Shown in pieces: positions 7,141 to 56,626 of a stretch of DNA of 64,000 nucleotides (positions are counted from its first letter, which is position 1; every line of letters starts with the position of its first letter). The notes under the pieces were generated by a model. The model was not told where the DNA came from. It ran no database searches and saw only the letters and a list, made by a program, of their open reading frames with translations. The position numbers and the translations under genes were made by a program. This stretch comes from Lachnospiraceae bacterium C7 (GTDB taxonomy: Bacteria; Bacillota; Clostridia; Lachnospirales; Lachnospiraceae): contig FOPE01000012.1 of the NCBI GenBank assembly GCA_900113385.1, positions 1 through 64,000 on the forward strand. Direction: 5' to 3'.

Positions 7141-7166
7141 TTGATTAAACAAAATAGTTTAAACCA

Positions 7167-7241
7167 ATTACAATACAATAAAACATATTAAATCGATTAC
7201 AATACAATAAAACATATTAAATTAATTACAATACAATAAAA
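7167..7241. repeat. 29-bp tandem repeat, 2.6 copies, before ruvA
   Basis: Copies start at 7167, 7196 and 7225, each beginning ATTACAATACAATAAAA; the first two copies differ only at the last two or three bases and the third is cut short. The repeat fills most of the gap between the Gx gene and ruvA. It has no dyad symmetry and no coding potential. Confidence 0.92.
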
Positions 7242-11674: not shown

Positions 11675-13615
11675 ATGGTACATTTGATTGTACAGGCATC
11701 TAAGTATTTGATGATTTTTCTATTTATGATTTATACGTTTGAATGCTTTCATGTATTTAGATTTTCATATGATAGAGAAAAACAACAAATCATATATGCT
11801 AAACAAAGAAAAATAATGTATTTTATACATTTTGATGGCTTTTTAGTATTGTTTTTAAATACTTTTGATGTAAGAGTGTTGGGAATATATATATCACAGG
11901 TTGTTTTGATAGCTGCAATTTATTTGGTTTACCATTTGTTTTATAAGAAAGCATCAGAACTTGTGTTAAATAATATGTGCATGCTCTTGTGCGTGAGTTT
12001 TATAATGATTACTCGTATTTCTGTTGAAAAGGCTATGAAGCAATTTGCAATTTTAGTTTTTTCGACAGTAATATCTTTAGTAATACCACTAATTATTAAA
12101 AAGGAAAGATCATTTAGAAAACTTACATGGTTGTATGTTGCTTTTGGTATTTGTGCATTAGGACTTGTTTTCATTGCAGGAAGTGTTAGTTACGGTGCGA
12201 AATTATCAATATCTGTAGCTGGATTTTCATTTCAAGCATCAGAGTTTGTAAAAATAACTTATGTATTTTTTATAGCTTCGATGTTAGAAAATGATACTTC
12301 GCCTAAAAAGTTAATGTTTACTTCGGGGATAGCAGGGCTTCACGTATTGATTTTAGTAGCTTCGAAGGATTTAGGTAGTGCATTTATTTTCTTTGTGGCA
12401 TATATAATGATGGTATATGTTGCTTCAAAAAATGTATGGTATTTAGTTGGCGGATTTGGAGCAACTTTTGGCGCTTTGTATATTGCGTCGATTTTGTTTA
12501 ATCATGTAAAGCAAAGAATCGTGGCATGGCAAAAGCCATTATCTGTAATTGATCATGAAGGATATCAAATATGTCAGTCGTTATTTGCAATTGGTACTGG
12601 AGGATTATTTGGATTAGGTTTATGTCAAGGTAAACCAGATAAGATTCCTGTAGTTGCTCAAGATTTTATATTTTCAGCAATTTCAGAAGAATTTGGTGGA
12701 ATATTTGCTTTATGTTTGATAATGATTTGCGTTAGTTGTTTTTTTATGTTCTTAAATATTTCAATAGAAATGAAAGATCAATTTTATCAGTTAACAGCAT
12801 TAGGATTAGGTACAACATACGCAATTCAAGTTTTTTTGACAATCGGTGGTGTAACAAAGTTTATACCATCAACAGGAGTGACTTTACCACTTATTAGTTA
12901 TGGTGGTAGTTCATTGCTGTCTACTATGATTATCTTTGGCGTTATTCAAGGCTTATATATCATTCAATACGATCGCCAGTATCCTGAGATGGAAGATGAA
13001 GATGCAGAAGATGCGGAAGCTATGAAAGATATAGAAGATATAGAAGGTGACAACTCTAATAGGTTAAAAGATTTCGATTCAAATGATATGTTATACGAAG
13101 AACCTAGCATGGATCAAAATGAATATTTAGGTGAAATGAGAGATTTTACAAGTAATAATATCATAGATGATGTAGCAAATAACATGGCTAATGAAATAAA
13201 AGATTTCACTAGCGCTAATGTTAAAAATTATTCTTCAGACAAATTAGATACGTTATCTGAAGATGACGTTAAATCTTATATTGGTAACAGCGTTAGGGAT
13301 TTTATTAATGAAGATAACGTCAAGAAAAATAGCCTAGAAAATCATGATAAAAAAGCAAATGAACAGGAAAATTATGATGCAGATTATCTAGATTTTTTAA
13401 ATAGAATTGAAGGCGATGACGATTTAGAAGATTATAGTTTAGACGACTATAGCTCAAACGACTATAGCTCGAATGATAATAACTTAGAAGATTATAGCTT
13501 AAATGACTATAATCCCAAAAATTATAGTTTAAATAATAGTAGTAAAAAAACTCAGACTATAAAAGAAGGAGATGGGCATAGTGGCAAAGAAGAATATGAA
13601 CTCAAGGACTTCTAA
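11675..13615 (+). CDS. FtsW/RodA/SpoVE family (SEDS) glycosyltransferase with long acidic tail
   Basis: SEDS proteins polymerise lipid II into glycan strands together with a cognate class B PBP. The first 430 residues hold about ten membrane helices, the S-A-I-S-E-E-F-G-G segment near residue 338 and T-L-P-L-I-S-Y-G-G-S-S-L-L near 403, matching the conserved extracellular and C-terminal SEDS motifs. From about residue 434 to 646 there is a cytoplasmic, Asp/Asn/Glu-rich, apparently disordered tail. It contains repeated D-F/L-S/T-x-x-N and, near the end, repeated Y-S-x-N-D units. SEDS proteins usually end soon after the last helix, so this tail is unusual. The 3' end overlaps the PBP gene, which should be its partner, as in actinobacterial rodA-pbpA. 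Confidence 0.9.
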   Translation: MVHLIVQASKYLMIFLFMIYTFECFHVFRFSYDREKQQIIYAKQRKIMYFIHFDGFLVLFLNTFDVRVLGIYISQVVLIAAIYLVYHLFYKKASELVLNNMCMLLCVSFIMITRISVEKAMKQFAILVFSTVISLVIPLIIKKERSFRKLTWLYVAFGICALGLVFIAGSVSYGAKLSISVAGFSFQASEFVKITYVFFIASMLENDTSPKKLMFTSGIAGLHVLILVASKDLGSAFIFFVAYIMMVYVASKNVWYLVGGFGATFGALYIASILFNHVKQRIVAWQKPLSVIDHEGYQICQSLFAIGTGGLFGLGLCQGKPDKIPVVAQDFIFSAISEEFGGIFALCLIMICVSCFFMFLNISIEMKDQFYQLTALGLGTTYAIQVFLTIGGVTKFIPSTGVTLPLISYGGSSLLSTMIIFGVIQGLYIIQYDRQYPEMEDEDAEDAEAMKDIEDIEGDNSNRLKDFDSNDMLYEEPSMDQNEYLGEMRDFTSNNIIDDVANNMANEIKDFTSANVKNYSSDKLDTLSEDDVKSYIGNSVRDFINEDNVKKNSLENHDKKANEQENYDADYLDFLNRIEGDDDLEDYSLDDYSSNDYSSNDNNLEDYSLNDYNPKNYSLNNSSKKTQTIKEGDGHSGKEEYELKDF

Positions 13616-15020: not shown

Positions 15021-15080
15021 TTTATTGCCGATTAGGAAGAAATAAGTTATACTTTTATAATGTAGGTAGTTATTATTGAT

Positions 15081-15180
15081 TACATATAATATTAATGCAC
15101 AGAATATTAGTTACACAAAATATTAGTTGTACATAATATTGCTTATACGTAATATTAGTTATACATAATATTAATTATAT
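15081..15180. repeat. Imperfect tandem repeat of about 16-18 bp, six units
   Basis: Units resemble ACATAATATTAGTTAT and repeat from 15081 to 15180 with drift between copies. They fill the gap between the PBP gene and the next small gene. No hairpin or ORF accounts for it. Confidence 0.85.
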
Positions 15181-15206
15181 ATGATATAAAATATAGGATG
15201 GAAAAA

Positions 15207-46819: not shown

Positions 46820-47560
46820 ATGTTTAAATTATTTTATGTAATATTTAGAAATTTATTTAGGGCGCCATATATGATCCCTAAAATGAGATTTTTTGCAGAT
46901 CATCCAGAAAAATATTCTAAAGAAACTAGATACTCGTTAGTTCAACATGTAATTAATTTGATGAAAAAATCAGGTGGGATATATACAATTGCCGAAGGTG
47001 TTGAGAATTTACCCAAAGATTCAGGGTATATTATGTATCCAAACCATCAAGGAAAATATGATGTTTTAGGGATTATGACTACTCATAGAGAGCCTTGTTC
47101 TTTTGTTATGGATAAGAATAAATCTCATACAGTTCTTGTAAGAGAGTTCGTTGATTTAGTTCAGGCAAAGCGACTAGAAAAAGATAACCCAAGGCAGGGA
47201 ATTAAAATTATTATGCAAGTAGCTAAAGAAGTTGCAAAAGGAAGCAAATATATTTTATTTCCAGAAGGCGGATATGAGAATAATAATAGAAATGTTGTAG
47301 CAGATTTTAAAGCAGGCAGTTTTAAAATTGCATTGAAATCTAAGGTGCCAATTGTACCAATTGCATTAATTGACTCATATAAAGTTTTTAATGCGATACA
47401 TTTTGGTAAAGTAACTACATATGTATGTTATTTAAAACCAATTTACTACAACGAGTACAAGGATTTAAAAACTAATCAAATTGCTGAGATGGTAAAGAAT
47501 AGAATAGAAGAAAAGATTATTGAAATGTCTAGTAAGAAAGTCGGTTTAAAGGTTATGTAA
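46820..47560 (+). CDS. 1-acyl-sn-glycerol-3-phosphate acyltransferase (PlsC family)
   Basis: Transfers an acyl chain to lysophosphatidic acid to form phosphatidic acid at the membrane. The H-x4-D motif is N-H-Q-G-K-Y-D near residue 75, the F-P-E-G-G motif near 151, and V-P-I-V-P-I-A-L near 175. The N-terminal segment is amphipathic rather than clearly membrane-spanning. Length (246) is normal. It has its own promoter, divergent from lexA, and a hairpin that overlaps its stop codon. Confidence 0.9.
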   Translation: MFKLFYVIFRNLFRAPYMIPKMRFFADHPEKYSKETRYSLVQHVINLMKKSGGIYTIAEGVENLPKDSGYIMYPNHQGKYDVLGIMTTHREPCSFVMDKNKSHTVLVREFVDLVQAKRLEKDNPRQGIKIIMQVAKEVAKGSKYILFPEGGYENNNRNVVADFKAGSFKIALKSKVPIVPIALIDSYKVFNAIHFGKVTTYVCYLKPIYYNEYKDLKTNQIAEMVKNRIEEKIIEMSSKKVGLKVM

Positions 47561-47574
47561 GCTTTTAAACCGAC
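47540..47574 (+). terminator. Hairpin over the plsC stop codon
   Basis: GTCGGTTTAAA near the 3' end of the coding region pairs with TTTAAACCGAC just after the stop, then ATTTTAG. It probably terminates the transcript. Diverged copies of its 3' half follow as a tandem repeat. Confidence 0.65.
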
Positions 47575-47675
47575 ATTTTAGATTATGTAAATTTTTAAGT
47601 CAACCTTTTTAGATTATGTAAATTTTCAAGTTGTTTTTTTAAAATTATGCAATCTTTTAAATTGATATTTATGAC
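47553..47675. repeat. About 31-bp tandem repeat, four units, after plsC
   Basis: Four units begin TTATGTAA or TTATGCAA (near 47553, 47584, 47615 and 47647), each followed by TTTTAA/TTTCAA and a T-rich tail. The first copy includes the gene's stop codon, so the array appears to have grown out of the gene end. Confidence 0.82.
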
Positions 47676-49045: not shown

Positions 49046-49298
49046 TTCTTAAAATCCTCTTTTTATAAAGATAGTAGTATTTTTTTTGAGACCTTCTCCA
49101 GGGTCTAGTTACTTAATCAAAAATAAGTATATAGTTATATTCTAAAAACAATAATCTTTTAAGTCAATATAAAATAATTTAAAAAAAGCTAAAAATAACA
49201 TAATAAAAAGAATATTAAATATAGAAGAATAAGAAAACTAAATATAGAAGCATAAGGATATTAAATGTAAAAGTATAAAAATACTAATTATAAAAGGG
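49046..49298. repeat. AT-rich gap with a 23-bp tandem repeat (49214-49293)
   Basis: Upstream of the GH43 gene and the T-box, this gap contains a 23-bp unit starting ATTAAATATAGAAG-like, repeated 3.4 times from 49214 with increasing drift. A small hairpin (AGACC...GGTCT, about 49080-49098) lies nearer the GH43 start and may be part of its leader. No ORF. Confidence 0.72.
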
Positions 49299-54883: not shown

Positions 54884-54997
54884 ACCTGATTTAATATGTT
54901 TGAAATATATTTAAAATATATTTAGAATGTGTTTGGATTTTAGAAAATATTTTAAGGCTAAATTAAAATGTTTATAGTTTTTTTAAGGAGAAAGTTT

Positions 54998-56536
54998 ATG
55001 GAATGCGTTAATAAAAAAAGAATGATTTTAGGGCAAGAGTACGAAGTGAAGAAAATGACTAATCCAAGGGATATAGCTGTTAAAGTGCCAGGTTCAAAAA
55101 GTATAACAAATAGGGCATTATTGATAGCAGCTCTTACAGATGGAAAATCAGTGCTAAATGGAGTTTTGTTTAGTGATGATTCAAGAAATTTTTTACAGGC
55201 ACTTAAAGATATGGGATTCAAAGTAGAAGTTGACGAAGAAAGAGAAAGGGTTGAAATTGTTGGTAATGCTGGACTTATTCCAAATAATAAAAGTGAAATC
55301 TATGTTGGAAGTGCAGGTACAGCTGCAAGATTTTTAACAGCGTTGTGTGGACTTGAAAAGGGAGAATTTAAACTTACATCTTCAGAACAAATGAAAAAAC
55401 GTCCCATGAAAGAATTGTTAGAAAGTTTAGTTGAAATAGGAGCTAACGTAGAGTATCTAGAGGAGAAATATCATTTTCCATATATAATAAAAAATAATAT
55501 AGCAAATAACATAGAAAGCAACACAGTAAGCAAAACAGAAAATAACACAGTAAGCAAAACAGAAAATAACACAGTAAGCAAAACAGAAAATAATGCAGAG
55601 ATTAACATAGTAAATGAAAGAGACAGTGTAACTGTTAATATAGATAAAAGCAGTCAGTTTTTAAGTGCATTATTAATTTCTTCAGTTGTATTGAATAAAA
55701 AATTTACAATACATGTTGAAGGAAATCATGGAATGGCATACGTAAAAATGACCGTAAAAATGATGGAACAGTTTGGAGTGAAAGTTCAAGTTTCAGCAGA
55801 TGAAAAAACATATACTATTCCTGCAAATTCAAAATATAAAGCTCGAGAATATGATATAGAACCAGATATTTCAGCAGCATGCTATTTTTATGCGATGAGC
55901 CCTATTTTAGGGATTAATGCTGAAGTGAAAGGAGTTAAATTAAATTCACTGCAAGGTGATATAGCATTTCTTGATGTTTTAAAAGATATGGGGTGCAATA
56001 TATCTGTAGGAAATGATAAACAGATAATTGTTATACCACCTAGGGATGGAAGTATTAAAGGTGGAAGCTGGGACTTGTCAGCATTTTCCGACCAAGCATT
56101 AACACTAGCAGCAGTTGCATATTATTGTCATGAAAAAGTAGAAATAAAAAATATTGGTCATATACAATTTCAAGAATGCGATAGGATTAATGCAATAATA
56201 GAAAATCTTAAAAATGCAGGAAAAAATTCATACTGTATTAGCAGTGACGGGAATGCTGTCAAAAATGTTGTTATATGCGATGACGTAAGAAGTGAAGATT
56301 TAACTATTAAAGATGGGGCTAATCAAAGTAAAATTAGCAAAGATGAAATTAATCAAGAGTTGGCGCAACAAGCAAAGAAAGTTGTAAGGATAAAGACATT
56401 TGATGATCATAGAGTAGCAATGGCTTTTTCTCTTATAGGATTGAGAAAAGGCAATGTAATTATTGAAAATCCTTCTTGTTGTAAAAAAACTTTTGAGACA
56501 TATTTTGATGTCTTAGAAAGCCTATATAGACCGTAA
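54998..56536 (+). CDS. aroA: 3-phosphoshikimate 1-carboxyvinyltransferase (EPSP synthase) with repeat insertion
   Basis: Joins phosphoenolpyruvate to shikimate-3-phosphate in aromatic synthesis. Conserved elements: V-P-G-S-K-S-I-T-N-R-A-L near residue 31, G-S-A-G-T-A-A-R-F-L near 105, K-R-P-M near 135, and F-D-D-H-R-V-A-M-A-F near 468. At 512 residues it is about 85 longer than usual. One extra segment (about residues 165-210) is an Asn/Thr/Glu/Lys insert with three S-K-T-E-N-N-T-V copies, and another (about 400-460) precedes F-D-D-H-R. Both lie between secondary structure elements, so activity could be kept. The start is ATG 54998 behind AAGGAG, not the upstream ATG at 54968. Confidence 0.93.
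   Translation: MECVNKKRMILGQEYEVKKMTNPRDIAVKVPGSKSITNRALLIAALTDGKSVLNGVLFSDDSRNFLQALKDMGFKVEVDEERERVEIVGNAGLIPNNKSEIYVGSAGTAARFLTALCGLEKGEFKLTSSEQMKKRPMKELLESLVEIGANVEYLEEKYHFPYIIKNNIANNIESNTVSKTENNTVSKTENNTVSKTENNAEINIVNERDSVTVNIDKSSQFLSALLISSVVLNKKFTIHVEGNHGMAYVKMTVKMMEQFGVKVQVSADEKTYTIPANSKYKAREYDIEPDISAACYFYAMSPILGINAEVKGVKLNSLQGDIAFLDVLKDMGCNISVGNDKQIIVIPPRDGSIKGGSWDLSAFSDQALTLAAVAYYCHEKVEIKNIGHIQFQECDRINAIIENLKNAGKNSYCISSDGNAVKNVVICDDVRSEDLTIKDGANQSKISKDEINQELAQQAKKVVRIKTFDDHRVAMAFSLIGLRKGNVIIENPSCCKKTFETYFDVLESLYRP
55526..55597 (+). repeat. 24-bp tandem repeat inside aroA, three copies
   Basis: Three in-frame copies begin GTAAGCAAAACAGAAAATAA at 55526, 55550 and 55574; the first two are identical and the third changes near its end. 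They encode eight-residue units T-V-S-K-T-E-N-N. Identity at the DNA level indicates recent duplication. Confidence 0.95.
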
Positions 56537-56578
56537 TTATATTTAGGAAGATTCAAAATCGTACCACACCAAATACGT

Positions 56579-56626
56579 TTGCTACAACAACGTATTGCTA
56601 CAACAATGTATTGCTACAACAATGTA
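56579..56626. repeat. 16-bp tandem repeat, three copies, between aroA and tyrA
   Basis: TTGCTACAACAATGTA at 56595-56610 and 56611-56626, and the same with one base changed at 56579-56594. Near-perfect identity points to recent expansion. The array ends 8 bp before the tyrA promoter candidate. Confidence 0.93.

Follow-up and report, generated by a model that had tools for sequence, protein, structure and literature searches.

The gene for EPSP synthase (aroA) in the window, as we call the whole 64,000-nucleotide stretch of DNA that was analysed, carries three perfect tandem copies of a 24-bp unit. The array is real and above chance: chance is excluded because TRF found 52 arrays scoring at least 80 in 404 kb of the window's own genome, and none in each of five dinucleotide shuffles. 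We consider it most probably an in-frame coding minisatellite, generated by slippage, filtered for reading frame and situated in loops that tolerate changes in length. The features are collected in Table 1.

Table 1. Features of the aroA region, in window positions.
Feature	Position	Strand	Description
aroA, EPSP synthase	54968..56536	+	longest ORF 522 aa; TIGR01356, PF00275
24-bp tandem array	55520..55591	+	3 perfect copies, NTVSKTEN each; residues 185-208 of the 522-aa ORF
Insert 1, 12-bp-periodic region	55496..55627	+	may start at 55484; fades beyond about 55615
Insert 2 region	56216..56407	+	64 aa, against 29 aa in 46/63 aligned sequences; non-repetitive
12-bp x1.9 perfect repeat	55741..55763	+	VKMTVKM; conserved enzyme region, outside the insert

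The array and its host enzyme

The TRF call (55513-55593; 24-bp unit x3.4, 96% match, score 148) contains copies at 55520-55543, 55544-55567 and 55568-55591, each consisting of AACACAGTAAGC followed by AAAACAGAAAAT, which translate to NTVS and KTEN, respectively. The original prediction, which was made from the letters of the sequence, spoke of three nearly identical copies; this wording is too weak, since the copies are perfect over 72 bp. It was right that each copy encodes eight residues and that 24 bp preserves the frame, which is kept through the whole gene, and its view that the expansion is recent is supported because the three copies are identical. The array lies inside an ORF, has a length divisible by three and exceeds chance, these being the marks of an in-frame intragenic tandem repeat.

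The single 24-bp expansion that was proposed is real, but is only part of the history, since the unit grew from an older 12-bp array. It is built of two diverged 12-bp halves and is flanked by degenerate 12-bp units, which begin near 55484 or 55496 and continue to about 55615. The in-frame 12-mers at 55484, 55496, 55508 and 55604 match a repeat half at 9, 9, 10 and 9 of 12 bases, respectively, compared with a best value of 8/12 among the 466 other in-frame 12-mers of aroA. The self-match of insert 1 reaches 0.65, 0.78 and 0.71 at shifts of 12, 24 and 36, respectively, and does not exceed 0.48 at the remaining shifts tested (3 to 39). These flanking-unit matches and the periodic self-match indicate an older 12-bp array, part of which was re-amplified as a 24-bp block.

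Elsewhere in the genome the unit was not found, apart from one match with three mismatches (a reversed control pattern also gave one). A palindrome search of the insert returned nothing beyond one 9-nt pair, and no RNA structure was detected in it (z +1.0). The short VKMTVKM repeat of Table 1 is probably coincidental and no part of the insert. A separate repeat of a 16-bp unit (x3.3, 94% match; window 56575-56626) is located 38 bp past the aroA stop, before the prephenate dehydrogenase gene.

Judged by sequence and model, the host is a complete EPSP synthase, the enzyme named in the original prediction. It scores 332.6 bits against TIGR01356 (cut-off 287.25), also matches Pfam PF00275, and is the sole EPSP synthase match in its genome (G000; 2.84 Mb, a draft of 91 contigs; GC of the window 0.31). 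The gene has a PilZ-domain gene on one side and the prephenate dehydrogenase gene on the other. A better start than that of the longest ORF is the ATG at 54998, which has AAGGAG upstream, gives 512 aa and is likely the true start. Residues at columns invariant in 62 sequences are kept, including K34, R39, G107, T108, R135 and Q220, as well as D365, E393, R396, R472 and K497. Of these, K34, R39, R135, D365, E393, R396, R472 and K497 may correspond to the substrate-binding and catalytic residues of the E. coli enzyme.

Residues 104-113 of the 512-aa form read GSAGTAARFL, with Phe in place of the Pro found in the AGTAMRPL of Vibrio and Colwellia EPSP synthases. This Pro is presumably Pro101 of E. 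coli. Since crystal structures exist for E. coli Pro101 variants (2qfq, 2qfs), the glyphosate response of the window's AroA type may differ.

The window's AroA has 512 aa (522 from 54968) compared with 427 for the E. coli enzyme (1g6s), an excess of 85 residues, so that the predicted surplus of about 85 residues in two inserts is borne out. It aligns with 421/427 residues of 1g6s and 421/426 of the Vibrio cholerae enzyme (3nvs), and differs from both mostly by these two inserts. Loop 1, which holds the repeat, has 63 aa, compared with 26 aa in 29 of the 63 aligned sequences. The second insert, near residues 417-480 in the numbering of the 522-aa form, is also present as predicted, and it is not repetitive. 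The model renders part of it as two strands plus a helix, at middling confidence. The sister sequence G060 is also long at this site (47 aa), and insert 2 is therefore probably older than the split between the two.

In the AlphaFold2 model, which was run with 62 sequences, the mean pLDDT is 87.7 and most core blocks exceed 90. Values below 50 occur at residues 173-185 and 187-202 of insert 1 (512-aa form), which falls between strands at 162-166 and 210-214. VIA-align superposes the model on 3nvs over 421/426 residues (Z 43.1, rmsd 2.1), and the predicted model has the two-domain fold of EPSP synthases; the extra residues would therefore be additions to a complete fold. The repeat, which had been described as a surface insert, is thus predicted to be a disordered loop on an otherwise intact fold, and from the secondary structure, pLDDT and alignment we infer that this loop lies well away from the active site.

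Arrays in AroA of other genomes

Of the 62 genomes of the genus, 55 have a match to the N-terminal part of AroA, and a search of named contigs gave 12 AroA loci with 39-69% identity. The 63 distinct sequences that were aligned consist of 54 from the genus and 9 from the named contigs, identical ones having been merged (G079 stands as L035); L086, which contains X, was omitted from the tree and from alignment A1. Loop 1 ranges from 26 aa, in 29 of these sequences, up to the 63 of the window. The length of AroA is mostly steady in the genus: the core, as measured on the alignment, has 377-473 residues in 54 sequences, with 51 of them within 398-439, and the window (473) is an outlier.

The tree places the window's AroA as sister to that of G060 (support 100/97), in which the loop has 28 aa and no array is present. 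Copy number is thus not fixed between species; a fixed number would have spoken against a recent expansion. Two other members of the genus have arrays of their own. G069 has an 18-bp unit (x2.4, NEVASG) in the loop that also carries the window's array; it groups with three array-less sequences that have 26-aa loops (94/91). G029 has a 30-bp unit (x4.3) in a different loop, and pairs with the array-less G030 (100/99). By unit sequence and tree position, these two arrays are independent gains of unrelated units. No array was found in the AroA of G079.

A sample of 396 family genomes yielded 96 further AroA of the window's type (high-scoring among the matches listed). The 150 sequences scanned comprise 54 from the genus plus 100 loci from other genera (high-scoring among the matches listed, six of them from another scan), less four dropped for low similarity (L187, L370, L371 and L372); L031-L042, and hence G079, were excluded. 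Nine arrays scoring at least 60 were found in eight of these 150 sequences, and eight of the nine, among the matches listed, have a period divisible by three. The ninth, in L088, has a 22-bp unit and falls within the C-terminal tail. A 14-bp match in L026 (x2.2, score 55) is under the threshold of 60, and the AroA of L180 is a truncated ORF of 313 aa. Arrays in other genera include those of G208, G131, G237 and G399. The AroA of G208 (L186; 561 aa) contains two non-overlapping arrays, one of them in the same hairpin as that of the window, and both are in disordered loops in its model. The original reading of an expansion is therefore supported but incomplete, since in-frame arrays recur independently in other AroA, and that of the window is not a one-off.

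In 29 genomes chosen for weak or split AroA matches, arrays scoring at least 50 occur in 6 of 28 sequences, a figure that is not a prevalence. Among individual sequences, L183 (G363) has an ORF of 624 aa with several arrays, and L163 (G464) has 466 aa with an array. Both look like the other of two AroA types, which suggests that array expansion is not confined to the type of the window. The profile scores in the 396-genome sample (among the matches listed) split into two types, that of the window and a much more distant one; this suggests that aroA has been replaced or transferred during the history of the family.

Repeat load, control genes and rival explanations

The genome of the window is rich in tandem repeats. 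In the 404 kb sampled, TRF found 82 arrays scoring at least 60 (period at least 9), compared with 0-5 in five dinucleotide shuffles. The density of 20 arrays per 100 kb is 3.6 times the 5.7 of G060 (12 arrays in 212 kb) at equal GC (p 3e-6), and minisatellites per non-coding base are two to four times as frequent as in G060, a comparison that rests on genome samples. Nine other genomes (samples of 11-60 kb) have 0-10 arrays per 100 kb, with the exception of G069, which has 20 (4 in 20 kb around aroA, including the aroA array itself); the value for G029 is 8.9 (11 kb around aroA). Intergenic minisatellites with differing units are seen in the window at 7159-7241, 15074-15187, 47553-47626, 49208-49296 and other spots.

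Within ORFs of this genome the arrays are filtered for frame, because 19 of the 20 inside ORFs have a period divisible by three, compared with 22 of the 62 outside (Fisher p 3e-6). The ORFs concerned include those for RecA, an NAD(P)HX dehydratase, an FtsW/RodA-like protein and a PSP1 protein. In RecA a 21-bp array (x2.3; L122:8071-8118) occupies the C-terminal tail. A YjeF/NnrD-type enzyme has a 9-bp array (x4.9; L129:14641-14684) inside its Carb_kinase domain, and so provides, after AroA, another case of an enzyme with an in-frame array in its interior. At window 13424-13511, a 15-bp in-frame array of LEDYS-like units is found in the C-terminal part of an FtsW/RodA-family protein, beyond the Pfam domain.

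Loss of mismatch repair was rejected as the source of the repeat load, because the genome has mutS and mutL, matched over their full length; in 25 of 25 genomes, that of the window included, both genes score over the cut-off. Genome-wide slippage alone was likewise rejected as a sufficient cause, because PurA, AroC and MurA of the genus show little spread in length and no array scoring at least 60. Complete HMM matches over the cut-off in the genus are contiguous and span about 1239-1254 nt for MurA (which has the same fold), 1245-1278 nt for PurA and 1023-1077 nt for AroC, with matches cut by contig ends omitted. Since these three proteins hardly vary, something about the AroA loops matters.

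No array scoring at least 60 was found in about 90 purA, aroC and murA genes (the best 30 per family), and the sole sub-threshold control (L253, score 53) may be a neighbouring ORF at a cut contig. The excess of arrays in AroA has Fisher p values of 0.018 for the genus (4/54) and 0.027 for all 150 (high-scoring among the matches listed), or 0.051 if just the three interior genus arrays are counted. These values are modest because taking the best-scoring loci as controls favours genes without interruptions, and because contig ends truncate a few of them, so that the ORF at the centre may belong to a neighbouring gene. Since, in addition, AroA probably evolves faster than the control genes, the contrast suggests that its loops are permissive rather than selected.

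The same data bear on the reading of the array as a selected contingency locus, in which copy number would tune AroA activity, partner binding or the response to an inhibitor, and selection would keep the loops prone to repeats. The arrays in 8/150 AroA (among the matches listed), compared with none scoring at least 60 in the about 90 best-scoring controls, are consistent with this, as is the fact that one hairpin carries arrays in three genomes (L001, L053 and L186). On the other hand, the inserts have no common sequence, disorder is predicted for those of L001 and L186, 142 of the 150 AroA of the same type (high-scoring among the matches listed) have no array, and AroA may simply have more permissive loops and faster evolution than the controls, so that we consider such a locus unlikely. 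It is quite improbable that the hairpin loops of the family's AroA form a nursery of minisatellites kept by selection, with an essential-pathway enzyme as a slow contingency locus; if this were true, copy-number changes would tune a central enzyme in its partner binding, inhibitor response or stability.

An error in the copy number of the draft is very doubtful. The genome is a draft of 91 contigs, and tandem repeats are said to produce assembly errors (PMC6868369), but the 72 perfect bases are shorter than a common short read, the frame is intact across the whole of aroA, the degenerate flanking units point to a real history, and seven other genomes have AroA arrays (among the matches listed), all of these arrays with a period divisible by three except that in the C-terminal tail. 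A mobile coding element inserted in frame, of the type of the Rickettsia palindromic elements, would also place an insert at a loop of a metabolic enzyme. This reading is scarcely credible and is largely refuted, because the unit has no dispersed copies in the genome, the insert lacks an inverted-repeat core (one 9-nt pair) and an RNA fold, and its tandem 12/24-bp structure is unlike a single element of about 150 bp.

A repeat-prone genome, together with AroA loops that accept changes in length, gives the simplest account. In the coding-minisatellite reading that we favor, a short AT-rich stretch encoding a beta-hairpin loop at the surface of AroA would have been duplicated to give a 12-bp array, which then diverged; a 24-bp block of it would have been re-duplicated recently to three copies, with replication slippage or unequal exchange as the presumed process. 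Since the cell has a single AroA, changes would survive only in multiples of three, and the loop, being disordered and lying outside the folded core, would accommodate the added residues. We infer here that slippage is the mechanism, that the array is nearly neutral and that its copy number is still changing. The gains of arrays in G069 and G029 count against this account, although the repeat load of these genomes comes from small samples.

Relation to known repeats and implications

In-frame coding tandem repeats are already known in bacteria, and the added interest here is their recurrence in one central enzyme. In a Legionella pneumophila survey (PMC2639597), all 26 intragenic repeats have lengths divisible by three, and 7 of the 26 are polymorphic between strains, these having higher internal identity. 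The aroA array resembles them in its short in-gene tandem units, divisibility by three and high internal identity, but its host enzyme is central to biosynthesis and encoded by a single gene copy, with the array in an internal loop of the fold. Bacillus repeats with lengths divisible by three usually encode amino-acid repeats (PMC8161180), as the aroA array also does; the examples noted there are repeat families of a general stress protein and of an anchor protein, whereas in AroA unrelated units appear repeatedly in one enzyme. A KPC beta-lactamase variant is similar in having a slippage-type in-frame insertion in an enzyme loop (PMC12593533). That insertion, however, is of 3 bp, stands under drug selection and was modelled with mismatch-repair deficiency, while the window's aroA has several copies of a 24-bp unit in a genome that has mutS and mutL, and is under no known selection. 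The Rickettsia palindromic elements (PMC10969869) are likewise in-frame inserts within metabolic genes, but form dispersed families of about 150 bp, whereas the aroA unit is tandem and private to one gene. A search of the open-access literature (EPSPS/AroA with tandem repeat and insertion) found no report of loop repeats in bacterial AroA.

The aroA array is a candidate typing marker for the source species. More broadly, the arrays that arose independently in several loops of a single fold form a natural series for length tolerance in a central enzyme, with MurA, of the same fold and genus, as a contrast in that it hardly changes in length. The AroA of this family could therefore serve the study of how disordered inserts are born in enzymes.
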